NCBI RefSeq assembly: GCF_018780075.1
Contig: NZ_JADMKB010000044.1
Coordinates: forward strand, 1-64,000
Reading direction: 5' to 3'
Length of the DNA: 64,000 nt
Source: Hydrogenophaga sp.
Lineage (GTDB): Bacteria > Pseudomonadota > Gammaproteobacteria > Burkholderiales > Burkholderiaceae_C
The notes beneath the pieces were generated by a model. That model had not been told where the DNA came from and searched no databases. It was given only the letters and a program-made list of their open reading frames with translations. Position numbers and translations under genes: made by a program. Below are positions 47,324-63,764 of the stretch, one piece after another. Position 1 is the stretch's first letter, and every line of letters begins with the position of its first letter.

Positions 47324-49242
<1,919 letters not shown>

Positions 49243-50859
49243 TTAATGTGATTGAAGTTTAGACATCTTTTCTGCCAGGTCACGTTCGTAGATCCAAATC
49301 TGATAGCCGTTGGAAGGAATGATTTTTTTAGCCCGCCCAAATTGCCCCTCAATGAATGCCCTGAAGGCAGTTGCTTCTCCATCGGTCAATAAAAGAAATG
49401 ATGGACCTGCTTCTTGTCTATACCAGTCATGGCTGATCATCACTGGATATGGACGAAACGTATTGGACGCTATTTCAATTGGGCGCACTTTGACGGCCTC
49501 TGATGTAAGGATTGTGACCGAGGATGCGTTCCAATACGTGGCATAACCTTTGCTGGTATTCAACTTTATAAGTTCACGTGCAACTCGAATCGTGTTGGTC
49601 TCTGTGATCGATGCTGCAGCCTGGACCTTATAGCGAATGTATGAAATCCAGCAAATGCAAGTCAATAAAAATGCAATGAGCAGTAAGTCAAGCCTACGTT
49701 TGTTAGAAAACCAATTTCCAATGCAAATGGAAGAAACAAGAAAAAGAATCGATACTGGTGTGGTGAAGTACCTAGTAGTCCATGGGTTCACAGCCAGCGG
49801 TACGAAAAACACGTAGAGAACTATTACAGGAATAAATGAGGCAATGAACGCAATGCCCATTGCCCGATAGAAATCAAATTGTGTGTCTTCCGTGCTGTCT
49901 TCTCCAATCCACCAGATGAAGGCGGCCACAGAAAACAATACAACCAAGCTCCCAGATATGGCGAGATATAAACCTGCCAAAGCTGTTCCACTAAAGGCAG
50001 CTGGATCAAGACCTAAATATTCCACCCAGCCATTTAAGAATATGGAAAAATTTGAATGAATTTGCTTGATGTTTGCTAGCTGCAGTGCGGAAGCATGATC
50101 TACGGTTTTTGAAAAACCAAACCTAAAAGAATTGTAATAGATTGCAGATGCGATCAACCAGCCGATCAATACGGCTCCAATTCGCCAAGCCGCAGGTGCA
50201 AGGGTGGGGGCGGTGAAAGGGATGCGCCAGTGGTATGCCGCCAAGAAAGCTAGAGCTGGCAAGGCATACATGAGCATGGATCGGCTAGGATTGCTGAGGC
50301 TAACTGCGGCAGAAATCAACACCGCAAGCAATATTTCTCTAGAGCGAGGACGTGTAAAGCGATTTTTGGCAAAAACAGCAATGGTCAAAAAAAATGCACA
50401 CACCCACCAAAAGTACGTGGTTTGTAAGAGAACCATCTGGGTGTACTTAAAGGAAATGCCACTGGCGAATAGTGCCATTGGCAAAAAATAGGAATTATGG
50501 GAATGAGTTTTCAGCGTCCAGTGAACTGAAAAAAGAAAGACCCCCGTCAATATTACGCTGACGACAGCATGCAATTCAAAGCTATTGGGGAAGAAGTGTA
50601 GCAGAGGTGCAATGATGAGTGTTCCAGAGGGAAGCATTAAATCCCCATTGGCGGTAACCCAATTTTCTGGAAACAGTCTGCCATGCTGATATACTTCGCG
50701 AGCGAGCAAGTTAAGCACGGCATCATCGGAAGTGAAGTTCTGTCTCGACTGGAATGCCAGATACTTGAACAGGAGGGCGCACAAGAACAACAAGGATGCT
50801 GCACCAAAGGCATTTAGCGCTAATTCAGATCTTTTGCTGAAAAATGATTGAAATGTCAT
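49243..50859 (-). CDS. Polytopic membrane protein, GT-C-like (possible GtrC-type transferase)
   Basis: A 538-residue membrane protein with about eleven helices and a C-terminal soluble domain (~ 430-538). The first periplasmic loop has FTSDDAVLNLLAREVYQHG, like the acidic catalytic loop of GT-C enzymes. I do not recognise a named family. Base use is strongly A+T-rich compared with gmd. With the GtrA-like and GtrB-like genes close by, it could be the third, serotype-specific part of a Gtr glycosylation system. Start MTFQSF at 50859 is chosen. Confidence 0.6.
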   Translation of the reverse strand: MTFQSFFSKRSELALNAFGAASLLFLCALLFKYLAFQSRQNFTSDDAVLNLLAREVYQHGRLFPENWVTANGDLMLPSGTLIIAPLLHFFPNSFELHAVVSVILTGVFLFSVHWTLKTHSHNSYFLPMALFASGISFKYTQMVLLQTTYFWWVCAFFLTIAVFAKNRFTRPRSREILLAVLISAAVSLSNPSRSMLMYALPALAFLAAYHWRIPFTAPTLAPAAWRIGAVLIGWLIASAIYYNSFRFGFSKTVDHASALQLANIKQIHSNFSIFLNGWVEYLGLDPAAFSGTALAGLYLAISGSLVVLFSVAAFIWWIGEDSTEDTQFDFYRAMGIAFIASFIPVIVLYVFFVPLAVNPWTTRYFTTPVSILFLVSSICIGNWFSNKRRLDLLLIAFLLTCICWISYIRYKVQAAASITETNTIRVARELIKLNTSKGYATYWNASSVTILTSEAVKVRPIEIASNTFRPYPVMISHDWYRQEAGPSFLLLTDGEATAFRAFIEGQFGRAKKIIPSNGYQIWIYERDLAEKMSKLQSH

Positions 50860-50869
50860 TGTGATGTAT

Positions 50870-51535
50870 TTATTTGATCTGAAGAGCCAAATAATACTGC
50901 GCACCAAGCGGCAACCATCCGAGAAATTTCTCAAGCGGAGCAAGAAATCTAAGTGAGCCAGGGAAGAAGAGAGTGTATTTAGAAGAGCGACTCCCAAACC
51001 CAGCTTTCTTGGCCAGTTCTAAGAAGTTGGCTTGACCAATCATTGTGGCATCTTGGTCAAAAATGCAGCGTTTAAAGACAATGCGAGTTAGCGGGTTAAT
51101 TGGGTTGTGCTCAAAGATTACAACAGTGCCGCCCGGATTCAAAGCTGTCTTAAGTCTGCCCAGCCATAGGAGCTGCTCACCTGGATTAATGTGATGAAAT
51201 ACATTGGATGTAAATATCAGATCAAACTTCTTGACGCGAGCCTCGTTCCAATCATTCGTGAACTTCGCCTGGGGAACGCTTGACCGCGCGATATTCAATG
51301 AATCTTCTGAAACGTCAAATCCAATGATTTCCGATTGTGGGAATTCTTTCGCTAGATGAAGTGAGCATTGTCCGATGCCGCATCCAAAATCTAACACCCG
51401 TGCAGGTGGGGTGTCGGCTATGCGTCTGGCTAGTTTGACTTTGTAAGTCGAAAAATACTCAATGGTTTTAAATCCAACGGGGATAGACCTCTCTAGGTCA
51501 TCAGAGTAAGATCTGGCATGCTTGTCAAAATCCAT
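50870..51535 (-). CDS. SAM-dependent methyltransferase (class I)
   Basis: A 221-residue enzyme with motif I VLDFGCGIGQCSLHLA, IIGFDVSEDSLNIA and FTSNVFHHINPGEQ. Class I methyltransferases of this shape act on sugars, lipids or quinones; here a sugar O-methylation in the polysaccharide is likely by context. It is A+T-rich. Start MDFDKHA at 51535, 4 bp after the GT2 stop, is chosen. Confidence 0.78.
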   Translation of the reverse strand: MDFDKHARSYSDDLERSIPVGFKTIEYFSTYKVKLARRIADTPPARVLDFGCGIGQCSLHLAKEFPQSEIIGFDVSEDSLNIARSSVPQAKFTNDWNEARVKKFDLIFTSNVFHHINPGEQLLWLGRLKTALNPGGTVVIFEHNPINPLTRIVFKRCIFDQDATMIGQANFLELAKKAGFGSRSSKYTLFFPGSLRFLAPLEKFLGWLPLGAQYYLALQIK

Positions 51536-51539
51536 GTTG

Positions 51540-52481
51540 CTAGTCCCCGCTCGACTTTGTAAATCCGGCAATTTCCCGAATGACGTACTGAGGCTTCTTG
51601 TTGGAGCTCAAGTAAAGGCGGCCAATATATTCTCCAATTAGTCCTAAAAATAGTATTTGCACGCCTGAAACGGCTAGGATGATGGCTACGATGGAGGTCC
51701 AGCCTGGTTGAACTGATGGGTTGGACAGTTTTTCCATGACCACATAAATCAATGTTAATAAACTCAGCAGGCCAAGTCCAACTCCCATCATGATGGCCAA
51801 GCGCAGTGGTGCGACCGAAAATCCCGTCGCCATTTTCAAGAGTAGCGAGATAGAGCGTTTGAAGTTATAGTTTCCTTCGCCGGCAAAACGTTCATGGTGA
51901 ACTGCATCAATGACTGCAATTCGATTGGTACTGCGTAAAATTAATCCGTCAATGTAGGGATATGGTCCCTCGTATTGTACTATGGCATTAAGAATGTGCT
52001 TTCGAAATGCTTTGAACGAAGATAGGTACAGCTTTCTTGGCTTATCTACCAAATGGCTTGCTAGCAGGTTGTTGAAATTGCTTCCAGCTACCTTCCATCC
52101 TGGGTGTTGTCGTTTTTCAAAGCGAACGAAACAAACGTCAGCTTCCTTTAATGTATCAATCAACTTGCCGATGTACGTTGGGGAGTGCTGCAAATCGTCA
52201 TCCATTAAAACGATATTATCGCCACTGGCCAATCGAAGTCCCGCCATAATCGCATTGTGCTGTCCAAAGTTTTTCGCCAAGTTTACTGCTTTAAGGTTGG
52301 CATGCAAGTTGGTCAGGGATTGCAGTACCTCCCAGCTGCCATCTGGACTCGCGTCATTGACCAAGATCAGCTCTGACTGATTTCTGAGACCAATTCTTTC
52401 AAGTTCGGTGTTCAATTGCTCCAACAGTTCTGGCAATATATCTTTGCTGTTATAGACGGGTATGACGATTGAGCACTTCAT
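51540..52481 (-). CDS. Polyprenyl-phosphate glycosyltransferase, GtrB/ArnC-like GT2
   Basis: A 313-residue GT2: CSIVIPVYNSKDILPELLEQ, LVNDASPDGSW, LMDDDLQHSP with the metal-binding acidic run, and HHERFAGEGNYNFKRSISLL; two C-terminal helices follow. GtrB-type enzymes attach a sugar to undecaprenyl phosphate on the cytoplasmic side. The GtrA-like flippase lies two genes upstream. Other possibilities are ArnC-like or DPM1-like enzymes with a different sugar. Confidence 0.83.
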   Translation of the reverse strand: MKCSIVIPVYNSKDILPELLEQLNTELERIGLRNQSELILVNDASPDGSWEVLQSLTNLHANLKAVNLAKNFGQHNAIMAGLRLASGDNIVLMDDDLQHSPTYIGKLIDTLKEADVCFVRFEKRQHPGWKVAGSNFNNLLASHLVDKPRKLYLSSFKAFRKHILNAIVQYEGPYPYIDGLILRSTNRIAVIDAVHHERFAGEGNYNFKRSISLLLKMATGFSVAPLRLAIMMGVGLGLLSLLTLIYVVMEKLSNPSVQPGWTSIVAIILAVSGVQILFLGLIGEYIGRLYLSSNKKPQYVIREIAGFTKSSGD

Positions 52482-52497
52482 GATCTATTTTGCGATG

Positions 52498-53148
52498 TTA
52501 TTGCTTGACACAGGTCATCACTATGCCTGTGTAAGGAATTCTTAAAGGGCTTTCTTCAATCAGTACCCGCGAAACTTTGAATTGATTCTCTGCTATTTTG
52601 AAGTAGGCGTCATCTGTTCGCACAGCTTGCCCCCTGTCTTTGCTTACAATGTATTTGGCTGCCAGTGATTGATTTTTTGTGTATACAGGATCTAGCGTCA
52701 AAAGCATTCCACCGGGAGTTAGCGCATCGTATGCAGTTTCAAACAGTTCTTGTGCAGTGGCGTCGTCTAAATGATGGAGTATGCCAATTGCCAATACGAT
52801 TTCGAAACTACCATGTCTCGAGATGGAGTTCTTGTTTACGTCTTCGCAGATGAATTTGGCATCCCTGTTTGTGAAGCGCTTATTTGCGGAGTTGATGTAA
52901 TCCTGATTTCGATCAAATCCAAAATATTGAACTTGAGGTGGAAGGTATGTCAGGATTTCTCCGGTGCCGCAACCGATGTCCAGTATCCGTGTGGCCTTCG
53001 AGCACAGCGGAATAATATGCTTCTCAATTACGCGTCTACGCCATTGATATGCGCCAACCGCATGTTGAAATGAATCATAGAATTTTGATAATGCAAGGAG
53101 ATGACGAATGCCATTCCTTATTTCAGACTCATGACGATTAGTGTGCAT
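52498..53148 (-). CDS. SAM-dependent methyltransferase (class I)
   Basis: A 216-residue enzyme with RILDIGCGTGEILTYL, YFGFDRNQDYI and VLAIGILHHLDDATAQELF. The C-terminus (ESPLRIPYTGIVMTCVK) resembles methyltransferases of polysaccharide and lipid loci. It is A+T-rich and lies between the GtrA-like and GtrB-like genes. It is distinct in sequence from the one at 50870-51535. The substrate is unknown. Confidence 0.75.
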   Translation of the reverse strand: MHTNRHESEIRNGIRHLLALSKFYDSFQHAVGAYQWRRRVIEKHIIPLCSKATRILDIGCGTGEILTYLPPQVQYFGFDRNQDYINSANKRFTNRDAKFICEDVNKNSISRHGSFEIVLAIGILHHLDDATAQELFETAYDALTPGGMLLTLDPVYTKNQSLAAKYIVSKDRGQAVRTDDAYFKIAENQFKVSRVLIEESPLRIPYTGIVMTCVKQ

Positions 53149-53157
53149 GCGCTGTGC

Positions 53158-53553
53158 TTAGGTGCTTTTTTTAAAAATGTAATGCCGCATAAGAATATAC
53201 ATCACTACAACATATGTTGTTATCGATATGGTCTGTGCGATTGCATCGTGCATGCGGTCTTTTATGAGTAGCAGCACAAGGATATTTAGGCCGTATGCGA
53301 GTGCAAAAGAGAGTGCATACCGTTTGATTTGTATTTGGGTATTGTTGCGCTTCTTGAAAACAAAAAACTTTGCTAACGTAAAGCTGAACAGCATCCCAAT
53401 TGAAAATCCGATTATATTGCTAATGACAGGGTTTGCATTCAATGCCGTCAATAGGGCGATGGTGCCAAGGCCAGTAGCGGCGTTGACCATGCCAGCACCA
53501 AAATAGCGGAGCAGATATCCCTTTTCGGAGCCGGTTTGGCTTGCTTCTATCAT
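53158..53553 (-). CDS. GtrA-family membrane protein (putative lipid-linked sugar flippase)
   Basis: A 131-residue protein with four transmembrane helices: LLRYFGAGMVNAATGLGTIA, then NIIGFSIGMLFSFTLAKFFVF and a last segment ending YILMRHYIFKK. This is the GtrA/DPMS fold, thought to move undecaprenyl-phosphate sugars across the membrane for periplasmic transfer. Its start overlaps the epimerase stop by 4 bp (ATGA). Confidence 0.85.
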   Translation of the reverse strand: MIEASQTGSEKGYLLRYFGAGMVNAATGLGTIALLTALNANPVISNIIGFSIGMLFSFTLAKFFVFKKRNNTQIQIKRYALSFALAYGLNILVLLLIKDRMHDAIAQTISITTYVVVMYILMRHYIFKKST

Positions 53554-54260
53554 GGTTTTTTTGAATAGTATTTTCTTAGGGTGTCTTCGAGATAGCTATC
53601 TTTAAATGTCAGACCAATTTCCCTGTAAATTTCTTTGGTGTGATCCAGTGGGATATCGTAAAAACTACCGCCCTCAATATAATTGACGCGGGCGCTTTTA
53701 CCTTTTATTTTTTCCAGCATTCTGACGATGTCCAGAATCTTTGTCGGGCATGGATTGCAAACGTTGGCGATAATGTTTTTATTTTTATGGTTCTTGATAT
53801 AGTGGATGACCGTTCGGGTTGCATCTTCTACATCAATGATGTTGCGTTCTGCCTTGGACCAAATATTGATTGGAGAGCTGCTTTCAATGCTGTTGCTGAG
53901 GAAGTTTAGCAGCGTGGTGGTGTTTTTGCTATTGCCGGCGAGCTGTGGCAAGCGGAAAATATGGGAGTTTTTCCGCTGCAGAATCATAAGCTCAATTTTT
54001 TGCTTGTGTTTGATATATGCAGAGTGTTTTAGAGTGGGGTCGTAAACGCTGCAAGTGCTGAAGTAAGCGAACGACTCATTTAAGCTCAATCCCTCAAATG
54101 TATCTTTCAATAAATTCAGTTCCCGCGCAAATTCTGCTTCATCTGTGCATGATGAATTGGAGACGCCTGAGGCAAAAATACAGATGCCCTGCAATTTATT
54201 TATATGTTTCTCAAATGACGACGCGAGCAGTCCTGTCCCAATGATCATGCCGTCTTTCAT
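53550..54260 (-). CDS. Divergent NAD-dependent epimerase/dehydratase-like protein
   Basis: A 236-residue short SDR-like protein. The nucleotide loop is unusual (MIIGTGLLASSF rather than GxxGxxG) and a Tyr/Lys pair may remain in YIKHKQK. FRLPQLAGNSKNTTTLLNFL and RNIIDVEDATRTVIHYI look like an epimerase's substrate and C-terminal parts. It is strongly A+T-rich. Start 54260 is supported by GGAG 7 nt upstream; the earlier ATG at 54272 overlaps that site. Function: a sugar-nucleotide step is likely; not certain to be active. Confidence 0.6.
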   Translation of the reverse strand: MKDGMIIGTGLLASSFEKHINKLQGICIFASGVSNSSCTDEAEFARELNLLKDTFEGLSLNESFAYFSTCSVYDPTLKHSAYIKHKQKIELMILQRKNSHIFRLPQLAGNSKNTTTLLNFLSNSIESSSPINIWSKAERNIIDVEDATRTVIHYIKNHKNKNIIANVCNPCPTKILDIVRMLEKIKGKSARVNYIEGGSFYDIPLDHTKEIYREIGLTFKDSYLEDTLRKYYSKKP

Positions 54261-54263
54261 TGT

Positions 54264-54389
54264 ATGCTCCATTGATTCAAACTATTTTTTTCTTTGCCTG
54301 TTAATATAGTCTTTACGTCTTCCCAAAAGTAGTTCGCAAGGTGGACGCCGTTTTGGCTGGTGGTGCCGGTGATGATGTTTTTTTTTCAT
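54264..54389 (-). pseudogene. Frameshifted N-terminal remnant of a gmd-like gene
   Basis: On the minus strand, ATG at 54389 is followed by nine A residues. With one A fewer the frame would read MKKNIITGTTSQNGVHLANY, then 24 more residues to a TGA at the start of the next gene. This resembles the start of Gmd here ([16 protein letters not shown]): 9 of 16 residues agree over that stretch. As it stands the ATG leads to an unrelated frame that stops after 35 codons. It is a short broken copy of a GDP-mannose dehydratase-type gene at the edge of the A+T-rich segment. Confidence 0.6.
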
Positions 54390-54436: not shown

Positions 54437-57400
54437 TTAGGTGACTCTGTCGAAAATAACCTGTAGGAGTTGATTCGAGCTTTGGTTCCAGCTAAGCCAA
54501 GGCATGTTGTCTGACTTGGGTTGCTTATGTTCCTGATAAAGAGTTAACCAATTGCTAATGAATTGTGTCAATTGTTCTGAGGTGATTGCATTGAAATAAA
54601 ACGCATGCTTGCCCGCGACCTCCCGAAACACAGGGATATCTCTTGCAATGATCGGCAGGTTGTGCTGGGCTGCTTCAATTAGAGGTAGGCCAAACCCTTC
54701 GCCGTAGGATCCAGCAATGAGGCAGGTGCTTGATACATAGACATGTTCCAAATATTCGTCGCTAATGCCCTCAAGCCAGATCAGACGTCTCTCTCGTTCG
54801 TTGTGACTGCGCAGCTTTTCCGCAAGTGGTTCGACCATCCATCCTTGTTTTCCGACGATCACAAGATTCACGTCGACGCCGCTTTGCCAAAGAAGCTCGA
54901 ATGCACCAAGCGCTTGGGCGTGGCCCTTGCGTGGTTCCAGCGTTCCGACCATCAGGAAGCTGGGGCGCTGCTTGATGGTTGCAAGAACATGATCTGCATC
55001 TGAGGGCAGACCTCGACTCGGCGCAGAGCCGCTGAAGTCAGCGCCTAGCGGGTTCGAGGTCAGTTGGAATGAACGAAGGCGTTTCCATGTCTTGGCCCTC
55101 ATCCAGTCCTGAAGCTCTAAGGCAACCGCTTTCGAGATGCAGATGGCGCCATCGCTTTCACCTACAACCTGCAACCAGTCGGATAAGACCTCTGCCGCGC
55201 CGGGTTGGAAGTGTTGGGACTGAAGAATGCAGAGCAGATCGTAAACATGGAATTTGACGGTTACGCCTTGGGCGCGCAGATGTTGGTAGAAGCTGGCCTG
55301 TGCCGCTTGCACTTGGGGCTGAAAATCCAACACAAAAAAGATATCGCCAGGCGAGAAGTCGATCACTTCGTCGGCTAACCCTGCACTTGGTATGCTGAGA
55401 AAGGTGGTTGTGTACTGCCTTGCATATCGATAAGGTTCTGAGGCTGTGGCATAGACCGGTTCCACTCGCCAGCCGGCCGGCGGGTTAAGCAACCAGTGCT
55501 TCAATATGCTGCGCACCACACGCTGGATGCCAGTTTTGGCGTCACGCTGCACAAGCTCTGAGATGTCAACCAGCAAGCTCTTCCCTGCTCGCGCGGGTGG
55601 AAACGTGGTTGCCATTGAGTACGCAAGTTGCTCTAGCTCGCATTCAGGCATAGGTGCAGTCGGAATAGCGCTGATCGCGGTTATCAGGTTTTTCAGCGTA
55701 CCTTGGTTTTTGTAGAAGCCTTCGATAGCAACTTTATATTGCTGGGCACAGCGAATGGGGTCATGGTTCTCGAGAATGACGCTTCTTGCTTTTGTGCCGA
55801 TCTGCTTACGCCTGCCTCGATCACGCCACAAGGTTTCCAAAGCATCAATGAGTGCTTGGTCGTCAAACTCATCAGGAAGTTTCCAAACAGCGTCATCGTC
55901 CAAATCTGCCATACTGCCGTTTGCGTTGACTATAGTAGCCAAGCCATAATTCATGCAGTCGAGTGCGGCAGCTGACGTTTCGCCTCGTGAAAACGATCGG
56001 AGTTGTACGCCAAGATCCGCTGCATTGAGGTATTTTTGAAATGTCTCTTTTTCAACCCAGCCGGTGATATCAACAGATGAGCCGTTCGGGTGTCGTTTGA
56101 TCAAGGCAAGAAGTTCGGTTCCATAGTCATCAGCGTGGTTTTCGCCAACAAAGACGAGATGGCAGGTGGCTAACTTTGCAAGGGAGGAATCTAACCAGGC
56201 TTGCAATAAACGATGATTGAGCTTGCTTGGGCCAAGAATACCGAACGAACAGACAAGAAAGTCGTTGTCTGAAAAACCTAAGGCATTGCGCGCCGCAGAA
56301 GCCTTATTTGAACGTTCTTGAACACGCAGCAGCGGAATCACTGAGTACGCCTGTACATCGTGACCATACCAGCGCTGAGCCAATTGAATAGAATTTTCTG
56401 AATGAACGATCGTTCCAATGCCACTTTCGATGACATCTCGGCTGCAGGGATATTCCCAGATGACGTCCGTCTCATTGGTGGCGTGAGCACGGTCCAGTAG
56501 AGCGGCATACCCGTGTGACCGATACAGCTGCTCCGTAAAGCAACCTGGAGAGCGACCCGTGGCATCCATATGGTGGAGTATCCCGGACAGGTAAAAGTCA
56601 TGAAGTACCACGACACCTGGGGCGGCGCTTAGCAGCCCAAACATATGCTGGTGAAATGCAGAGTTGCCGAAATGGTAGAGAACACGGTCGAAGCGTTTGC
56701 TGTTTTCCGCGAACCACTGCAACGACCGAATTGGGCAATTCGCCTTGATCCACGCGTCAGTGACGCTGTCCTGAGCAACCACCACTTCAATCTCGTAGTG
56801 TTGCGCCAATGCGGGTAGCAGCTCAGTGCTGTAGTCGGAAATGCCGGATCGTTCGGGAGGAAGGGGCGACACGTAGGCGAGCCGGAGCCGATTTGGCGGC
56901 GCAGCTTTGGACGCCCGCTGAGCAGTCCTGTCGATGACCAATCTTTCCATCGCATCAATTGCGCGTCGAGCGGTCATGTCCCACGAAAACTTGACTGACT
57001 GCATTTGTCCATGAGCAATCAACTGCGCACGAAACGCCGCGTCTGTGAGAGCGCGTTCTACCGCACGCGTGATTGCCTCATCAGAATGGGGGTCAAATAG
57101 TGCATCAGCCCACCCAACGACCTCGGGCAAACTGGATGTGTCTGCTGCGATCACAGGAGCGCCGCAACGCATTGCCTCCAGAGCAGGCAGACCGAAACCT
57201 TCGTGCCAAGATGGAAAAACGAACAGTGTACAAAGGTTGTAGAGGGCAAGAAGGTCATCTTCAGGGACGAATCCGGTGAGCACCATTTCATCTTTACCTA
57301 ACCCCACTTGCGCAGCCAGTCGTTCCAATAGTTGCTTTCTTCCTGGCTGCATGGAGCAAACGATGGCCAACTGATGGGCGTTGCGCAGTACGGTTGGCAA

Positions 57401-58147
57401 CTTCGAAAATGCGCGAATAAGACCTTCGATGTTCTTCCGATGATCGATGCCGCCGGTGTACATCAGAAAGGGGCGGTGCAAACCATACTGTTGCCGAAGT
57501 GTTTTTTCTGATTCAGCTGAAATTTCGATCCGCTGAAAGGTAGCATCGGCATCGGTAGAGATATTGACCGATCGATCATGCGGTAAACCGAGGTGGTCGA
57601 TGCCTTCCCTTCGGGATGATTCCGAGATGGTCAGCCAGAGATCGGCACGGCGCAGATGCTCTATTTTTCCCAAATACCAAGCCTCGACTGCCGGATCTTC
57701 AAGATAGGGTTTGCGATGAATGTAGGGAATCAGATCAAAGAGTGTCACGGCCGTCGGGTGCGTCCGTGACAGTGCACCAACGCTGGATACGGCATCATCC
57801 CCAAGGCCTTCGAACAGGCTGCATATATGTACCACGTCCGGCCTGAGACTGGTGAGAAATGCCTCCCTCACCAATTCCGCCGAGTGCCGGCGCCAATCGT
57901 TGGTCGTGTTGATGCCGGCAACGGGTGCAACGGCATTCCAGACGCGGATATTTTCTTGCGGCAGTAGGTTGTTGAACGCAGCGCGGATAGGTTCTATGGT
58001 ATCGGGGAAGAGACCATTTAACGCAATCAGGACCTCATGTTCACCCCGTTTGCGCACCATCGCCAAGGCCAGGGACAGCGAATAACGACCAATACCTCGC
58101 AGTCGATTTTCCGCTTGCACCGCCTGAAGGTCGATGACGATGCGCAT
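54437..58147 (-). CDS. Trimodular glycosyltransferase (WbdA-like polymerase)
   Basis: A 1236-residue protein with three GT-B modules. Module 1 (1-~400) begins MRIVIDLQAVQAENRLRGIG and has YTGGIDHRKNIEGL and HEGFGLPALE (E-x7-E). Module 2 (~420-800) begins RLAYVSPLPPERSGISDY and has SRGETSAAALDC, where the second Glu is missing. Module 3 (~855-1236) has VDISELVQRDAKTGIQRVVR, VGTLEPRKGHAQAL and YGEGFGLPLIE (E-x7-E). Multi-module WbdA enzymes polymerise the mannose or rhamnose O-antigens of Escherichia coli O8/O9a. The WbdD-like partner abuts it (TGATG). Confidence 0.85.
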   Translation of the reverse strand: MRIVIDLQAVQAENRLRGIGRYSLSLALAMVRKRGEHEVLIALNGLFPDTIEPIRAAFNNLLPQENIRVWNAVAPVAGINTTNDWRRHSAELVREAFLTSLRPDVVHICSLFEGLGDDAVSSVGALSRTHPTAVTLFDLIPYIHRKPYLEDPAVEAWYLGKIEHLRRADLWLTISESSRREGIDHLGLPHDRSVNISTDADATFQRIEISAESEKTLRQQYGLHRPFLMYTGGIDHRKNIEGLIRAFSKLPTVLRNAHQLAIVCSMQPGRKQLLERLAAQVGLGKDEMVLTGFVPEDDLLALYNLCTLFVFPSWHEGFGLPALEAMRCGAPVIAADTSSLPEVVGWADALFDPHSDEAITRAVERALTDAAFRAQLIAHGQMQSVKFSWDMTARRAIDAMERLVIDRTAQRASKAAPPNRLRLAYVSPLPPERSGISDYSTELLPALAQHYEIEVVVAQDSVTDAWIKANCPIRSLQWFAENSKRFDRVLYHFGNSAFHQHMFGLLSAAPGVVVLHDFYLSGILHHMDATGRSPGCFTEQLYRSHGYAALLDRAHATNETDVIWEYPCSRDVIESGIGTIVHSENSIQLAQRWYGHDVQAYSVIPLLRVQERSNKASAARNALGFSDNDFLVCSFGILGPSKLNHRLLQAWLDSSLAKLATCHLVFVGENHADDYGTELLALIKRHPNGSSVDITGWVEKETFQKYLNAADLGVQLRSFSRGETSAAALDCMNYGLATIVNANGSMADLDDDAVWKLPDEFDDQALIDALETLWRDRGRRKQIGTKARSVILENHDPIRCAQQYKVAIEGFYKNQGTLKNLITAISAIPTAPMPECELEQLAYSMATTFPPARAGKSLLVDISELVQRDAKTGIQRVVRSILKHWLLNPPAGWRVEPVYATASEPYRYARQYTTTFLSIPSAGLADEVIDFSPGDIFFVLDFQPQVQAAQASFYQHLRAQGVTVKFHVYDLLCILQSQHFQPGAAEVLSDWLQVVGESDGAICISKAVALELQDWMRAKTWKRLRSFQLTSNPLGADFSGSAPSRGLPSDADHVLATIKQRPSFLMVGTLEPRKGHAQALGAFELLWQSGVDVNLVIVGKQGWMVEPLAEKLRSHNERERRLIWLEGISDEYLEHVYVSSTCLIAGSYGEGFGLPLIEAAQHNLPIIARDIPVFREVAGKHAFYFNAITSEQLTQFISNWLTLYQEHKQPKSDNMPWLSWNQSSNQLLQVIFDRVT

Positions 58148-60168
58148 CAGCCATTCTCCTTCCGGTGGTGCTCTATGGCGTCTTTGAGATTGATGTAGAT
58201 CTGGCGGGTACGTGGCGATAAGTGATCTTCAGTCATTGCCATGAAATCAGAACGCGGCGGAGTTTGTGCATTTAAGTCCGGCGCAATATTGCTTTCTGGT
58301 TGACCCTGTAAGCGGAAATACAGTTCTCGCATACTGGGGTACAAACCCAACCGGCGTACTCCTTTCACTAGGCGCATGCGCAACTGGGGCCGTGCATTGA
58401 TGGCGACTATTTGCCGCAGAAGAATCTTCTTCAACAGAGCGCGAAAACGCGAGCGACAGCCATATGTGGCCAGCAACTTTCTCTGCAAGCTGAGCCAACG
58501 CAGCGGCGCTGTGATCTGCCATGAGGTGCTGCTGAGCAAGGCATGTATCCGCTGTTCGGATGCCACTGCCAGGCTTTGATACTGCTGCAGCGTCGATTCA
58601 AAACCGGTGATAAGGTCACGTGTTTGCTGTGATGCATCCATGGCCTGTTGCGCGATGGATAAGGCGTTGTCGGCGGAGGCTGTGGCCTGTTGTGCAGGTG
58701 CCACGAAAGCCTTAAGCTCGGTTTGCACTGCGTTCAAGCCCGCTCTGATGTGTTGGCCGAGGTTCTTTTGTGTCTGTATTGCTTCTTCAATCACCTGCAT
58801 CCAGACATCTTGCGGATTGTTTGGAGACGGGCGCGAGTCGCCATCGTCAACGCCTTTCAGCAGCGTCTGATGCATGAGATGGAAGGACCATTCGGTCAAC
58901 GGACGGTGCCATAGGGCCGTGGCCCACGCCTGGTACCTTGCCGGCAGTCGCAGGGGGGTTATGGCGATGGTGCGCAGCGGATCCGGGTCATCGATTTCAC
59001 CGGTGATGACTTCTCGGACGAAGATAAAGAATGCAAAAAATGGATTGGCAGGCCAGACGCAGTCCTGTGCAACAGGAGAGATCGAACCGTAGTCGATGAG
59101 ATGCACAGCGCCATCTTCGGCGACAAGAATATTCCAGGTCCGCACATCGTTGTGAAACAAACCAACCGCTTCGAGCGAAGCGAGTTGATCGAGCACGAAG
59201 AGCAACAATGCATGGGTGTCGAGAGCAACATTTTCACGGAGCAAGTCAAGCAAAAGTCGACCTGGTAGCCGCTGCATCGCGACCCAGGCTTCTGTTTCGT
59301 TGTTGTCGCAAACAATGAGATTTGGGGCGGAAAATCCAATCGGTGGATTCCGCAAAAAAGTCATCTCGTTGGTGAAATGATCTCGATTGACGTCACCCAA
59401 TATGTGATCAAATCGATACAATTTGACAACTTGATCTTCCCCAAAAAAATACCGCCGACTTGATTGATAGAGTCCATGAGCCAATGTGTGGGGATCCATT
59501 GTCCAGCTATGAAACCGGTAGGCTTGGCCACTCAGTATCCAGTACTTATCGCTCGCTACAAGTAGCGGTCGAACGATGTTTGCCAAGTGGGTGCTGTGCC
59601 GAGCCACTTCGTGGATAAAAGGAATGGAATCCAACAATGAGCGTGGGTCCTTTGGTTGCGCGGGGCCCCAGTAGAGAGGTTCTTCGCGCAAGGCCAGCTC
59701 CAGCACAAGCGCTCCACATTGAGCGGCAGCGCGACCCAGCAAAGCCTGGACGACCGCGACACCCTTTTCATGCACGATGTGATGGAAGACGCTTAACCCC
59801 AGCACGAGGTCGTATTGACCAGGCTCCAAGCGAGTGATGACATCTTCAATCCGGCCAGTTTCAAAGCTGACTTGTAGAGCCGCATTCTCCCTGGCGAGAG
59901 CACAGCAAACAGATATGTTTTTGTCAAGATAGTCGACCCCGTGAACGGTTGCACCGCGCTCGGCCAAGTTGAGGCTGAAATAGGCTTGAGCACAACCAAG
60001 GTCCAGCACCCTAAGCGGTCTGCCAAGCAAGCGCTGTATCGCATCGTGGATGCGTGCAATGTGTTCGAGCCGATCCTGGCTGGTGCGGGATACATGGCGA
60101 GACAGTTCTGGATGCCCATAAATGGGCTGATAGACCTCAGGTAGGTCTGCAACAAGGGAGTTAATCAT
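58147..60168 (-). CDS. wbdD: O-antigen chain-terminating kinase/methyltransferase, WbdD-like
   Basis: A 673-residue protein that follows Escherichia coli O9a WbdD along its length. The methyltransferase (1-~215) has LVADLPEVYQPIYGHPE, VLDLGCAQAYFSLNLA and LSVFHHIVHEKG. The kinase (~255-460) has RRYFFGEDQVVKLY, HNDVRTWNIL (catalytic loop) and LIDYGS (in the DFG position). A coiled-coil-like stretch follows (~480-570), then SSTSWQITAPLRWLS and a basic membrane-binding tail. WbdD phosphorylates and methylates the chain end and sets chain length. Start MINSLV at 60168 is chosen by that match; it overlaps wzt by 8 bp. Confidence 0.9.
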   Translation of the reverse strand: MINSLVADLPEVYQPIYGHPELSRHVSRTSQDRLEHIARIHDAIQRLLGRPLRVLDLGCAQAYFSLNLAERGATVHGVDYLDKNISVCCALARENAALQVSFETGRIEDVITRLEPGQYDLVLGLSVFHHIVHEKGVAVVQALLGRAAAQCGALVLELALREEPLYWGPAQPKDPRSLLDSIPFIHEVARHSTHLANIVRPLLVASDKYWILSGQAYRFHSWTMDPHTLAHGLYQSSRRYFFGEDQVVKLYRFDHILGDVNRDHFTNEMTFLRNPPIGFSAPNLIVCDNNETEAWVAMQRLPGRLLLDLLRENVALDTHALLLFVLDQLASLEAVGLFHNDVRTWNILVAEDGAVHLIDYGSISPVAQDCVWPANPFFAFFIFVREVITGEIDDPDPLRTIAITPLRLPARYQAWATALWHRPLTEWSFHLMHQTLLKGVDDGDSRPSPNNPQDVWMQVIEEAIQTQKNLGQHIRAGLNAVQTELKAFVAPAQQATASADNALSIAQQAMDASQQTRDLITGFESTLQQYQSLAVASEQRIHALLSSTSWQITAPLRWLSLQRKLLATYGCRSRFRALLKKILLRQIVAINARPQLRMRLVKGVRRLGLYPSMRELYFRLQGQPESNIAPDLNAQTPPRSDFMAMTEDHLSPRTRQIYINLKDAIEHHRKENG

Positions 60169-61474
60169 GCGTAGTGCTTTGCTGTGGGATGTCCAACCTT
60201 TGAAACGAGGCGCGGAGATCCACAATGCCCCAGAACTGCAAAGTCCGACCCACATGGAGCAGGACTGAGTCATAGCGGCGGTCCAAGGGGGTCAGGTCGT
60301 GCAGTGGGTCGCCAGAAGAAATTCCGAACGATGCAAGGTAATGCCCTTCGTTGAGGTTGAGGGGCAGCGAAAATCGAAATACCTTGATTTCCCCGGCGCG
60401 AGCTGAAATGCGCTCTTTTCCATGTGATGACACAAAGGAGTTGGTGCCGTAGAGAAAAATGCCTTCCAATGTCTTGATTAGAAAACCTGGAACGACATTG
60501 TCGAAATTGGCATCGAATCGCACCTTGAAAACGAAGTCGGTATTGGCATTGGCCTCGATGCGGGAGGGGTATTTTTCACCATCTGCAACCACGAGGTAGT
60601 CGAGGATGACTGCTCCACCCTGACCCCAGCGATGTTCTTGTGGATGGTACCCAGAGCGGGTGTGAAACTCTTCAGCCGCACCATGAAAAAATTGCTGCTC
60701 TTCGGTGGCATTGGCTAGACTGGGTTCATCTTGAGTTTTCCTTCGCTTACCGAACAATTCGTCCATATAGCGGTTAGAAACTGCCCTCGATGAACCGTCC
60801 ATGATCATCTGGCCATTTTTGAGCAAAATCGCCCGGGCACAATGTTTCACCACGTCTGCAGTGCTGTGAGTAACCAGAAGAAGCGTGGTGCCTCGTTCCT
60901 TGAACTCATTGATGCGCTGAAAGCACTTGGCCTGGAAATAGGCGTCACCGACCGAAAGTGCTTCGTCTACGATCAGGATGTCAGGGCGGATGGCGGTGGC
61001 CACGCTAAAAGCCAGGCGCACCTGCATGCCGCTGCTGTAAACGCGCACAGGCTCGTCAATGTAATCACCGATTTCGGCAAAGGCTTCGATTTCGGGAAGC
61101 AACCTTTGAATGTCTTCGACGGCATGGCCAAGTAGTTGCCCGGCCATCATGACGTTTTGACGCCCTGTGAAGTCAGGATGGAAGCCCATGCCGAGCTCCA
61201 GCATGGCAGCGACACGGCCCGTCATGTGCACACTGCCCGTGGTGGGCTGAGTGGTGCCCGTGATCATTTTGAGCAGGGTGCTTTTGCCAGCCCCATTCAC
61301 GCCCATGATTCCCACGGTCTCGCCTGGTTGAATGTTGAAGCTGATGTCCTGCAAAATCCATTTCAGGGTGTGGCGCTGCGGATAAAACGGGACAAGCCAT
61401 TCGGCCAAGCGTGCCCAGCGTGATGGGTATTGCTTGTAGGCCTTGCCCAGGTGAGAAACAGAGATGGTGCCCAT
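60161..61474 (-). CDS. wzt: O-antigen ABC transporter ATPase Wzt with C-terminal carbohydrate-binding domain
   Basis: A 437-residue Wzt. The ATPase has Walker A GVNGAGKST (58-66), YSSGMQVRLAFSVA (signature) and ILIVDEALSVGD (Walker B). Residues about 290-425 form a beta-sandwich binding domain (VVADGEKYPSRIEANANTDF, FLIKTLEGIFLYGTNSF). This domain recognises the capped chain end in O9a-type systems, so export depends on WbdD action. Start ATG 61474 lies 23 bp from wzm. Confidence 0.92.
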   Translation of the reverse strand: MGTISVSHLGKAYKQYPSRWARLAEWLVPFYPQRHTLKWILQDISFNIQPGETVGIMGVNGAGKSTLLKMITGTTQPTTGSVHMTGRVAAMLELGMGFHPDFTGRQNVMMAGQLLGHAVEDIQRLLPEIEAFAEIGDYIDEPVRVYSSGMQVRLAFSVATAIRPDILIVDEALSVGDAYFQAKCFQRINEFKERGTTLLLVTHSTADVVKHCARAILLKNGQMIMDGSSRAVSNRYMDELFGKRRKTQDEPSLANATEEQQFFHGAAEEFHTRSGYHPQEHRWGQGGAVILDYLVVADGEKYPSRIEANANTDFVFKVRFDANFDNVVPGFLIKTLEGIFLYGTNSFVSSHGKERISARAGEIKVFRFSLPLNLNEGHYLASFGISSGDPLHDLTPLDRRYDSVLLHVGRTLQFWGIVDLRASFQRLDIPQQSTTHD

Positions 61475-61497
61475 GGTGTGTAACTGCCGATTCGTCT

Positions 61498-62289
61498 TCA
61501 GAGTTCATCCACCATTTCGCCAGATCGCAGGCGAAACAGACGCAGGCCAAAGATGCAGAGGAAGGCCGTCAGCGCCGCCACGGGCCAGAGGCTGGTCCAG
61601 TGTGGCCACTGACCATGCACGAGAACTCCCTGGCAGGCCACCATGACGCTGGCCATGGGATTGAACTTCATAAGGTACTGCACCTGTTCGGGCAGGATGG
61701 CCACCGGGTAGACGATGGGGGTGAACCAGAACCAAAACGAGAGGAAAATGCCGAAGAACTGCCCCACATCGCGGAAGAAGACGTTTAGCACGCCGAGGGT
61801 GATGCCGATGCCGATGGCGAACAGCACCAGCAGCAGCAGCAGCGGGATCAGCGCCAGAAAGGCCCAGCCCGGGAAGTTGCCGGACAGCAGCAGGAAGAGG
61901 GTGAAGAGGCCGAAGACGATGCCGAAGTTGAGCACCGCGTTGCTGACCACCGTGACCGGCAGGCACAGGCGGGGAAAGCTCAGTTTCTTCAGTAGGTTGG
62001 CATGTTCGAGGAACATGCCAGTGGCCCGCGTCGTGATTTCGGAAAATAGGCCCCAGATCAGGATGCCGGTGCACAGGTAGATGCTGAAGGCGTAGTCACC
62101 CTCGACTCCTGGAAGCCGTGTCTTCATGAGCTGGGAGAAGATGACCGTGTAGACGAAGATCATCGACAGGGGGTTGATGATGTTCCACGCCGCGCCCAGC
62201 AGGGAATTGCGGTATTTGGTCTGGAACTCGCGTTTGACGCTGCCGAGGATGAAGCCCCGGTAAGCCCACAGGGCCCGGATCATGTCCAT
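61498..62289 (-). CDS. wzm: O-antigen ABC transporter permease Wzm
   Basis: A 263-residue ABC-2 permease with six transmembrane helices. REFQTKYRNSLLGAAWNIIN and PLSMIFVYTVIFSQLM are typical of Wzm/KpsM/TagG permeases. It forms the export channel for undecaprenyl-linked polysaccharide with Wzt. Its ATG overlaps the manC stop by one base (TGATG). Confidence 0.92.
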   Translation of the reverse strand: MDMIRALWAYRGFILGSVKREFQTKYRNSLLGAAWNIINPLSMIFVYTVIFSQLMKTRLPGVEGDYAFSIYLCTGILIWGLFSEITTRATGMFLEHANLLKKLSFPRLCLPVTVVSNAVLNFGIVFGLFTLFLLLSGNFPGWAFLALIPLLLLLVLFAIGIGITLGVLNVFFRDVGQFFGIFLSFWFWFTPIVYPVAILPEQVQYLMKFNPMASVMVACQGVLVHGQWPHWTSLWPVAALTAFLCIFGLRLFRLRSGEMVDEL

Positions 62290-63764
62290 CAGATTCGCCC
62301 GTAGGTGTCGGCGAGCCGAACGATGTCGTCTTCGCCCAGGTAGTCACCGCATTGCACCTCGATCATCACCAGTTCGTCGCGCCCCGTGTTGGTCAGGCGG
62401 TGTTTTTCCTGCAATGGAATGTGGCGGTATTCACCCGGGCGCGTGGGGTATTCGGCATCGCCGATCTGGACGATGCCCCGGCCACGCACGACCACCCAGT
62501 GTTCGGCGCGCTGGTGGTGGTATTGCAGGCTCAGGCTTTGCCCCGGCTTGATGGTGATGCGCTTGACCTTGTAACCGTCTTCTTCTTTCAGCGTCGAGTA
62601 GGTGCCCCAGGGCCGGTGCACTTCTGGCGGCAGCAGGGTACTCTGGTGCTGCGGACTGTTGACGTGGCGTTCTTTGAGCGCGTCGACGATCCGTTTGACG
62701 CTTTGTGCTTCCTGTTTGCTCGCGATCAGGAGTGCGTCGGGAGTGTCCACCACCACCAAGTCTTTGACGCCCAACGTTGCCACCACTTTGTGGCAATGGC
62801 TATCGATGTGGACGTGTGTGCCAGTGGTGTTCACGGCCACCCAGTCGGTGTTGTCGGCCGCGCCCAGCGTGTTGCCGCTGGCGTCGGGTGTGTGGGCCTG
62901 GGCGACGGCGGGCCAGGCGCCAACGTCGCTCCAGCCAAAGCGCGCGGGAACCAGCACCACATTGGTGGCGCGTTCCATGACCGCGTAGTCGATGCTGATG
63001 TCGGGCTGTTTGCCGAAAGCGTGTCCGTCGAAGCGTGTGACCAGCGGTGCCGCGGCCTGCTCGGCCAGGGGCAGGGGCTTGGTGGTGGACTGCAACATGG
63101 CCTGCTGGGCTGCGGCAAGGACATCGGGTGCGTGTAGCGCCAGAGCCGCCAGCAAGGTGCCTGCCGTGAAGCAGAACATGCCGCTGTTCCAGTAGAAACG
63201 ACCTGTGGCGAGGTACTCCTGGGCCGTGAGTAAGTCGGGCTTTTCGACGAATTTGAGTACCGGTTGCACCTCCCGTCCAACCTTGGCGACTTCGATGTAG
63301 CCAAAACCGGTTTCCGGGCCGGTGGGATGAATGCCGAACACCACCAGCTGGCCATTCTGTGCTTGGCGGATTGCCTCCAAGGCGTTGGCCACGAAGGTTT
63401 CGGTGTCGGGAATCAGGTGGTCTGCCGGAAGCACAAGCATCACGGCGTCGTCACCCGCAGTGGATTGACAGCTGAGCGCTGCCAACGCGATGGCCGGTGC
63501 GGTGTTCCGGCCCTTGGGTTCCAGGAGGTAGTGCGCTTTTGGGGGGGCCACCATTTCGGCCAACAGACCCTGCGTCAGGAACAGGTGGTCCTGGTTGGTC
63601 ACGATCAAGAGATCATCCGTCCCGCAGGCTTGGCCACGGGTAATCGCTTGCTCCAGCAGCGCGCTGCCCCCGAGCTTCATGAAGGGTTTGGGATGGGCCT
63701 GTCGAGAAACAGGCCACAAGCGTGTGCCGGCCCCGCCGGAAAGAACAACAGAAAACAGTTTCAT
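62289..63764 (-). CDS. manC: Mannose-1-phosphate guanylyltransferase / mannose-6-phosphate isomerase
   Basis: A 491-residue type II PMI/GMP. The N-terminal nucleotidyltransferase has LSGGAGTRLWPVSRQAHPKP and FVEKPD; the C-terminal cupin isomerase has RPWGTYSTLKEEDGYKVKRI and LSLQYHHQRAEHWVVV. It supplies GDP-mannose to gmd/rmd and to mannosyltransferases. No phosphomannomutase is in this window, so that step is encoded elsewhere. Nine bases separate it from rfbC. Confidence 0.94.
   Translation of the reverse strand: MKLFSVVLSGGAGTRLWPVSRQAHPKPFMKLGGSALLEQAITRGQACGTDDLLIVTNQDHLFLTQGLLAEMVAPPKAHYLLEPKGRNTAPAIALAALSCQSTAGDDAVMLVLPADHLIPDTETFVANALEAIRQAQNGQLVVFGIHPTGPETGFGYIEVAKVGREVQPVLKFVEKPDLLTAQEYLATGRFYWNSGMFCFTAGTLLAALALHAPDVLAAAQQAMLQSTTKPLPLAEQAAAPLVTRFDGHAFGKQPDISIDYAVMERATNVVLVPARFGWSDVGAWPAVAQAHTPDASGNTLGAADNTDWVAVNTTGTHVHIDSHCHKVVATLGVKDLVVVDTPDALLIASKQEAQSVKRIVDALKERHVNSPQHQSTLLPPEVHRPWGTYSTLKEEDGYKVKRITIKPGQSLSLQYHHQRAEHWVVVRGRGIVQIGDAEYPTRPGEYRHIPLQEKHRLTNTGRDELVMIEVQCGDYLGEDDIVRLADTYGRI

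Follow-up and report, generated by a model that had tools for sequence, protein, structure and literature searches.

A probable O9a-type locus for capped O-polysaccharide export in Hydrogenophaga, with a three-module polymerase

We analysed a stretch of 64,000 nucleotides (the window; positions 1 to 64,000, forward strand, of contig NZ_JADMKB010000044.1, assembly GCF_018780075.1) from Hydrogenophaga sp., for which a reading of the letters alone (the original prediction) had proposed a complete O-antigen machine with capping by WbdD and export by an ABC transporter. Between positions 54437 and 63764 the minus strand carries, in order of transcription and all as open frames, manC (62289..63764; GDP-mannose supply, TIGR01479 above the cut-off), the permease gene wzm (61498..62289; ABC2_membrane, PF01061, with 53-54% identity to O8 and O9 Wzm), wzt (60161..61474), a gene for a WbdD-type methyltransferase-kinase (58147..60168), and a gene for a WbdA-like polymerase of 1236 amino acids with three stretches of glycosyltransferase (GT) family GT4 (54437..58147). 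The manC/wzm and wbdD/polymerase junctions overlap by one base (TGATG) and the wzt/wbdD junction by eight bases. The polymerase, WbdD, Wzt and Wzm genes are thus all present as predicted, an arrangement far beyond chance, and are adjacent; to call the four overlapping was slightly off, because wzm and wzt are separated by 23 bases. The G+C content is 0.43-0.56 at 48-62 kb, compared with 0.62-0.73 in 2-kb blocks elsewhere in the window; O-antigen blocks that have been exchanged usually show such lowered G+C. Nothing matched in a scan of viral contigs.

Read from the ATG at 60168, the WbdD-type protein has 673 amino acids; the mechanical open reading frame (ORF) starts further upstream and has 708. 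Residues 34-558 of the latter match the solved E. coli O9a WbdD with E 6e-117 (phmmer against solved structures), which covers both catalytic domains, and by blastp residues 2-661 of the 673 align with residues 5-704 of the 708 of E. coli O9 WbdD at 34% identity, so the match runs through both domains and the C-terminal tail, as claimed beforehand. An AlphaFold2 model of this protein, made from 39 window and locus sequences, had a mean pLDDT of 86.3; its C-terminal part is a long helical region, and pLDDT falls below 50 at residues 491-510 and 624-645. The top Foldseek matches of the model were 4ax8, 4azs, 4azt, 4azw and 4uw0; the fit to 4azw (TM 0.94 of target length, 2.1 Å, 40% identity) provides the fold match that had been proposed as a check.

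The protein has the architecture of O9a WbdD, in which a methyltransferase (approximately residues 1-205; 59554..60168) is fused to a eukaryotic-like kinase (approximately residues 215-440; 58849..59526) and a coiled-coil ruler (helices 452-502 and 510-545; 58534..58815). The coil is partly of low confidence, and its continuity is not sure because of the low pLDDT at residues 491-510. The tail (58150..58530), which begins with the motif STSWQITAPLR at residue 547 and forms helices 548-591, 594-607, 610-620 and 652-672, contains the SxSW motif; recruitment of the polymerase by this tail is putative. Numbered as in E. coli WbdD, with the register fixed by H132/H133, the methyltransferase residues Y16, R36, D82, H132, H133, H197 and R203 are kept (Y13, R33, D79, H129, H130, H194 and R200 of the window protein). 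A loss of kinase residues on alignment was looked for, and D351, N356 and D369, together with W355 (D341, N346, D359 and W345 of the window protein), were all found in place, as was K252, which we take to be the ATP lysine. Judged by its sequence, the protein is an O9a-type terminator. In the E. coli enzyme, mutation of Y16, H132, H133 or R203 abolished methyl transfer, and the O8 enzyme is described as having neither the kinase nor the phosphate-specific methyltransferase residues (available part of PMC3482155).

Wzt combines a nucleotide-binding domain (approximately 60725-61474) with a carbohydrate-binding domain (CBD; approximately 60164-60724; Wzt_C, PF14524) of the O9 type, as found in CBD-dependent Wzm/Wzt transporters. 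The CBD matches the solved O9a CBD 2r5o with E 9e-64 and, taken alone, is 54% identical to the O9 CBD, and gave no match to O8 at E 1e-3. The E. coli O8 WbdD, an enzyme of 425 amino acids, is matched by the window's WbdD only in its tail part; used as a query, it finds only the coil and tail of the described WbdD, an O8-type methyl-only WbdD being absent both from this genome and from that of Hydrogenophaga flava NBRC 102514 (L015-L017). Neither mark of an O8 system, methyl-only WbdD or O8 CBD, is seen in the window. Since the phosphate-specific methyltransferase residues are kept and the CBD is of the O9 type, the sequence favours a methyl-phosphate cap over methyl alone, which sharpens the predicted 'methyl or phospho-methyl' cap to its O9a branch. 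Recognition of a methyl cap by the CBD on rhamnose or mannose chains has been described in A. aeolicus (available part of PMC9445017).

The polymerase has three modules, in contrast to the bimodular WbdA of O9a. Module 1 (residues 1-405; 56933..58147; motif EGFGLPALE) is 48.5% identical to E. coli O8 WbdA and 40.6% to O9 WbdA over residues 1-409, and module 3 (residues 851-1236; 54440..55597) is of the O9a WbdA C-module type, with 45% identity to that module of O9 WbdA over residues 853-1229. The middle module (residues 416-835; 55643..56902) finds no counterpart in the two E. coli WbdA proteins by blastp when taken by itself, the unmatched stretch spanning approximately residues 447-852. In hhalign, which was run on small alignments, it scored a probability of 95 (E 5e-9) against module 1 and 84 (E 9e-7) against O8 module 3; we regard both as distant GT4 kinship only, and dropped the idea that it is of the O8 module 3 kind. 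Three linkage types would be expected in the polymer.

The supply of sugars is suggested by the neighbouring genes. On the same strand the block contains, as predicted, gmd (GDP-mannose 4,6-dehydratase; 48184..49218; PF16363, E 2e-139) and an rmd-like reductase gene (47324..48271; PF01370/PF16363; start probably internal; from residue 11 on 64% identical to its H. flava counterpart), and with manC these would give GDP-mannose and GDP-D-rhamnose. Directly upstream of manC lie rmlC, rmlA, rmlD and rmlB-type genes (Pfam; contig 63773-67210, L014:774-4211), the first of which crosses the window edge; they probably supply dTDP-L-rhamnose. We assign the names Rml by gene order and Rmd by neighbourhood, in part presumptively. 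D-rhamnose, from gmd and rmd, is a likely constituent of the polymer, and L-rhamnose is possible because rml-type genes follow manC upstream. The predicted polymer of 'D-mannose and/or D-rhamnose' stands in that both sugars stay possible, and is too narrow in leaving out L-rhamnose. The capped sugar might be a manno-configured residue made by module 1.

We consider it quite probable that this is an ABC-transporter-dependent O-polysaccharide locus of the O9a, or terminator-ruler, type, which caps its chains and exports only the capped ones; homology strongly supports the capped, CBD-gated export. By analogy with published work on E. coli and A. aeolicus, which we follow for the reaction, the length control and the gating, a lipid-linked chain would be extended at the membrane by the three GT4 modules of the polymerase. 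WbdD would be held by its C-terminal tail, with the coiled coil keeping its active sites away from the membrane; it would phosphorylate the terminal sugar and then methylate the phosphate, and chain growth would stop. The cap would be bound by the O9-type CBD of Wzt, and Wzm/Wzt would export the chain. Of the predicted 'same logic as O8/O9a', capped and CBD-gated export stands; terminator and CBD are, however, of the O9 type, and the polymerase is neither that of O8 nor that of O9a. Overall, what the original prediction observed is confirmed, and its interpretation is partly supported, sharpened and in part corrected.

Several findings weigh against this assignment. Whole Wzt is also 48% identical to O8 Wzt in an alignment that ends only within the CBD, at residue 379 of 437, so the O9 and O8 CBDs are distant kin and not unrelated. 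A search of this genome and that of H. flava for O9 WbdC found none (E 1e-15; the search had no positive-control genome), and WbdB and WbdC gave only cross-matches to GT modules in the window plus flank, WbdB not having been sought genome-wide; with no WbdC-type gene turning up, 'complete' was too strong a word for the machine. The eight papers checked by title and abstract start show no Hydrogenophaga lipopolysaccharide (LPS) chemistry, and the ligation target of the chain is putative. Finally, the acceptor residues of the E. coli kinase are not conserved: the window has Y230H, R270V and E274H, plus D350N, and so His where the E. coli enzyme has an essential Tyr (Y230F abolished activity) and a Glu described as a Mg ligand (available part of PMC3482155). 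These changes suggest a kinase that reads a terminal sugar or linkage other than that of O9a, and the capped sugar therefore need not be mannose. They could also mean that the kinase is degenerate and that the enzyme adds methyl only, as in O8, to which we give little chance. Loss or weakening of the E. coli enzyme upon mutation at 230 and 274 speaks for it, D350A being mild in vitro, with longer chains in vivo (same source). On the other side stand the intact frame, the 77% identity of the catalytic domains to those of H. flava, the conserved D351, W355, N356, D369 and K252, the O9-type CBD and the retained phosphate-specific methyltransferase residues, reported missing in O8 (same source). 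Moreover, among 58 other homologues (the window, the O9a reference and H. flava being counted apart, split or truncated WbdD of L043, L068, L074, L076, L080 and L081 left out, and L082 having given no ORF), His is the commonest residue at position 230 (H 38, Y 14, N 4, R 1, gap 1) and Asn is frequent at 350 (N 23, D 15, others 20). Positions 230 and 270 vary across the family and so do not define it, although they remain a real difference from the characterized enzyme. Position 274 is E in 51, D in 3, R in 2, A in 1 and K in 1, and H only in the two Hydrogenophaga; this confinement makes H274 the chief sign that the kinase is changed or weakened, and it counts against the assignment.

A plain copy of O9a, that is, a polymannan with 3-O-methyl-phosphate on its terminal mannose, would leave gmd, rmd and the rml-type genes with roles elsewhere in the region. 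It would fit the matches of modules 1 and 3 to O9 WbdA, the O9-type CBD and WbdD, and the adjoining manC; the middle module unmatched in O9 WbdA, the changed acceptor residues, and the retention of gmd (92%) and rmd (64%) in the same block of H. flava make it unlikely in our view. The exported polymer could instead be a capsule or exopolysaccharide and not an LPS O-antigen. No ligase match was found in the window's contig, with Wzy_C-family (ligase/polymerase family) members on other contigs, and in 13 of the 65 loci with a WbdD-type ORF the fetched DNA lacks wzt; Wzm and Wzt, however, match the O-antigen transporters of O9 and O8 as well as the O9a CBD, and we judge such a product improbable. 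The O9a-type O-polysaccharide locus remains our preferred assignment.

As a candidate predictor of sugar supply, residue 230 was dropped, having no clear link to strong gmd and rmd in 62 loci: His occurred 20 times with and 21 times without them, Tyr 5 times with and 10 times without, and Asn (4), Arg (1) and a gap (1) in loci without them. The rows of this comparison are related, many being Xanthomonas, and little weight attaches to a gene's absence within about 10 kb. WbdD-type domains lie in ORFs of 1805, 1608 and 1860 amino acids in L021, L036 and L045, all with Asn at 230, and that of L036 is fused to polymerase modules.

The closest locus is that of H. flava, which has the same manC-wzm-wzt-wbdD-GT order and identities of 85% for Wzt, 73% for Wzm, 92% for Gmd, 64% for Rmd and 77% for the catalytic part of WbdD. 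Its WbdD is 34% identical to that of O9, and its Wzt 61.5% to O9 and 48.6% to O8 over residues 1-385. Beside this O9-type terminator and CBD, however, stands a full-length O8-type WbdA polymerase (46.8%), which is 55% identical to the window's over module 1 and elsewhere shows only weak generic or cross-module GT matches. Its ruler is 42 residues longer, and two other GT genes lie between polymerase and gmd. E. coli O9/O9a (like Klebsiella O3) shares with the window the wzm-wzt-wbdD-wbdA order, full-length WbdD, the O9-type CBD and the N- and C-modules of WbdA; the window differs in the extra middle module, in the gmd, rmd and rml-type genes of the region, in residues 230, 270 and 274, and in that wbdB/wbdC-type genes were not found in the window plus flank. 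E. coli O8 (like Klebsiella O5) resembles it in its large polymerase (1213 amino acids; module 1 48.5%), in Wzm (53%) and in Wzt (48% over residues 1-379), and differs in its 425-residue WbdD, matched only in the tail, in a CBD unmatched when taken alone, and in modules 2 and 3, which have no full-length match.

A full-length WbdD was found in one of 35 congeners (H. flava) and in none of 24 further genomes from the order; all remaining matches there were short and weak (best E 1.3e-9). No WbdD was found at E 1e-25 in 368 other genomes drawn evenly from the class, a sample that shares a few genomes with the former ones and in which at most three candidates were scored in the genomes shown. A scan of named genomes gave 66 loci, 65 of them with a WbdD-type ORF; Wzt was strong (phmmer score of at least 350) in 45, its gene lying directly upstream of wbdD in all 45, weaker in 7 and absent from the fetched DNA in 13, and strong gmd and rmd were present in 25 loci. 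A betaproteobacterial WbdD is not unique, since the scan finds H. flava, Delftia, Tepidimonas, Niveibacterium, Caldimonas, Burkholderia, Dechloromonas and one metagenome-assembled genome (MAG). In a tree of 61 of 67 rows, the two Hydrogenophaga group together (100/100) and the enteric O9a clade (100/100) and the Xanthomonas/Stenotrophomonas clade (100/100) are separate; Delftia and Desulfatitalea (88/87), Tepidimonas and Niveibacterium (84/94) lie near Hydrogenophaga with only moderate support. WbdD-type methyltransferase-kinases with no wzt in the fetched DNA, which is short in some cases, also occur in MAGs of Actinobacteria and Selenomonadaceae (L072, L075, L077-L079), and an O9-family wzm-wzt-methyltransferase cluster lies on a 74-kb E. 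coli record whose size suggests a plasmid (NZ_CP100939.1 42457-49555).

Polymerase architectures were scored in the ORF after wbdD in the 65 loci. Delftia acidovorans (L019), Desulfatitalea alkaliphila (L018) and Tepidimonas sp. (L020) have the same three-module polymerase adjoining wbdD (52, 47 and 48% over the full length), but longer rulers (258, 370 and 352), and only L020 has gmd and rmd within the fetched DNA. Modules 1 and 3 occur together in 13 loci, module 1 with the middle module in Hafnia, the middle module with module 3 in three purple sulfur bacteria lacking module 1 (L024, L044, L054) and, as a fusion with WbdD, in a MAG of Afipia; H. flava combines module 1 with O8-type modules 2 and 3. 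The remaining loci, including most Xanthomonas and those cut by contig ends, had single modules, other positions or nothing at the thresholds used. Module 1 adjoins the terminator gene in O8, O9, H. flava and the window; as a shared condition for WbdD it was dropped, because it is found in only 21 of the 65 loci and is missing in the three purple sulfur loci and most Xanthomonas. Two Xanthomonas loci contain a further polymerase-like gene with module 1 and an O8-type module 2 (L038:4633-7752, L076:4632-7757).

From D369 to the tail Trp, the ruler spans 191 residues in the window, 226 in O9a, 233 in H. flava, 258 in Delftia and 228-365 in Xanthomonas. Changed coil length in E. coli leads to changed chain length (available part of PMC5082667), and longer chains are therefore predicted in H. 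flava, where the polymerase also differs. Of 15 pairs with catalytic identity of at least about 0.70 and unequal rulers, 14 differ by a multiple of seven, the exception being a Sodalis pair, one of which has a split gene; the corresponding figures are 1 of 10 at identity 0.60-0.70 and 16 of 79 at 0.50-0.60. These 14 come from only about three lineages (with differences of 42 residues in Hydrogenophaga, 77 in X. nasturtii/cucurbitae and 35 in X. arboricola L052), and we take heptad-preserving changes as no more than a hint. X. nasturtii (L042) and X. cucurbitae (L049), whose catalytic parts are 95% identical and whose ruler is 77 residues longer in the latter, form a natural length experiment. 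Three records, one from a Sodalis symbiont and two from Xanthomonas (L043, L074, L076), have their wbdD match divided over different frames.

Between gmd and the polymerase gene lies, on the minus strand, an accessory block (49243..54272) encoding an SDR-like protein of 240 amino acids, GtrA, a methyltransferase, a PgfS/ArnC-like GT2, a second methyltransferase and a multi-transmembrane protein of 584 amino acids with no family match at E 0.001; in H. flava its place is taken by the two other GT genes. GtrA, the GT2 and the multi-transmembrane protein (49243-53553) possibly form what we take to be a three-component periplasmic side-branch glycosylation system.

WbdD-type enzymes outside enterics are already in print: the available part of PMC4878081 notes the likeness of Xanthomonas WxcB (poly-rhamnan O-antigen) to WbdD, and describes an Xcc wxcB mutant with no O-antigen. 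The same text calls the function of WxcB obscure, mentions a possible polar effect, and reports unchanged LPS in an X. euvesicatoria wxcB mutant. Our Xanthomonas loci, with a WbdD-type ORF after wzt and with gmd/rmd, are equated with wxcB by genus alone. The Klebsiella O7 terminator ORF6, which adds methyl-phosphate to a rhamnose-ended chain (available part of PMC11231755), differs in a kinase domain unlike in sequence and structure and in its fusion to GT2 modules. Judged by titles and abstract starts, none of the listed papers that use the name WbdD, some of them for unrelated things, is about Hydrogenophaga or Betaproteobacteria; the search covered mostly papers outside subscription and is weak evidence of novelty.

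What a terminator reads is hard to separate from what its polymerase makes, because cap and polymerase types go together in the two E. coli types compared. The two Hydrogenophaga loci, with near-kin Wzt and WbdD but unlike polymerases, offer a natural test of whether the terminator recognizes only the chain end, and the middle module unmatched in the E. coli WbdAs is part of the same test. The E. coli acceptor site may be atypical of the family, to judge by His being the commonest residue where E. coli has an essential Tyr. Tentatively, WbdD and the Wzt CBD may form a portable unit ('terminate and export') behind which one polymerase can be swapped for another: the H. flava locus would be a naturally occurring hybrid of O8 polymerase and O9 cap, the Hydrogenophaga kinase site would be retuned (Y230H, R270V/A, E274H) for another terminal sugar, for example D-rhamnose, and the ruler of the closest relatives would shift by whole heptads.

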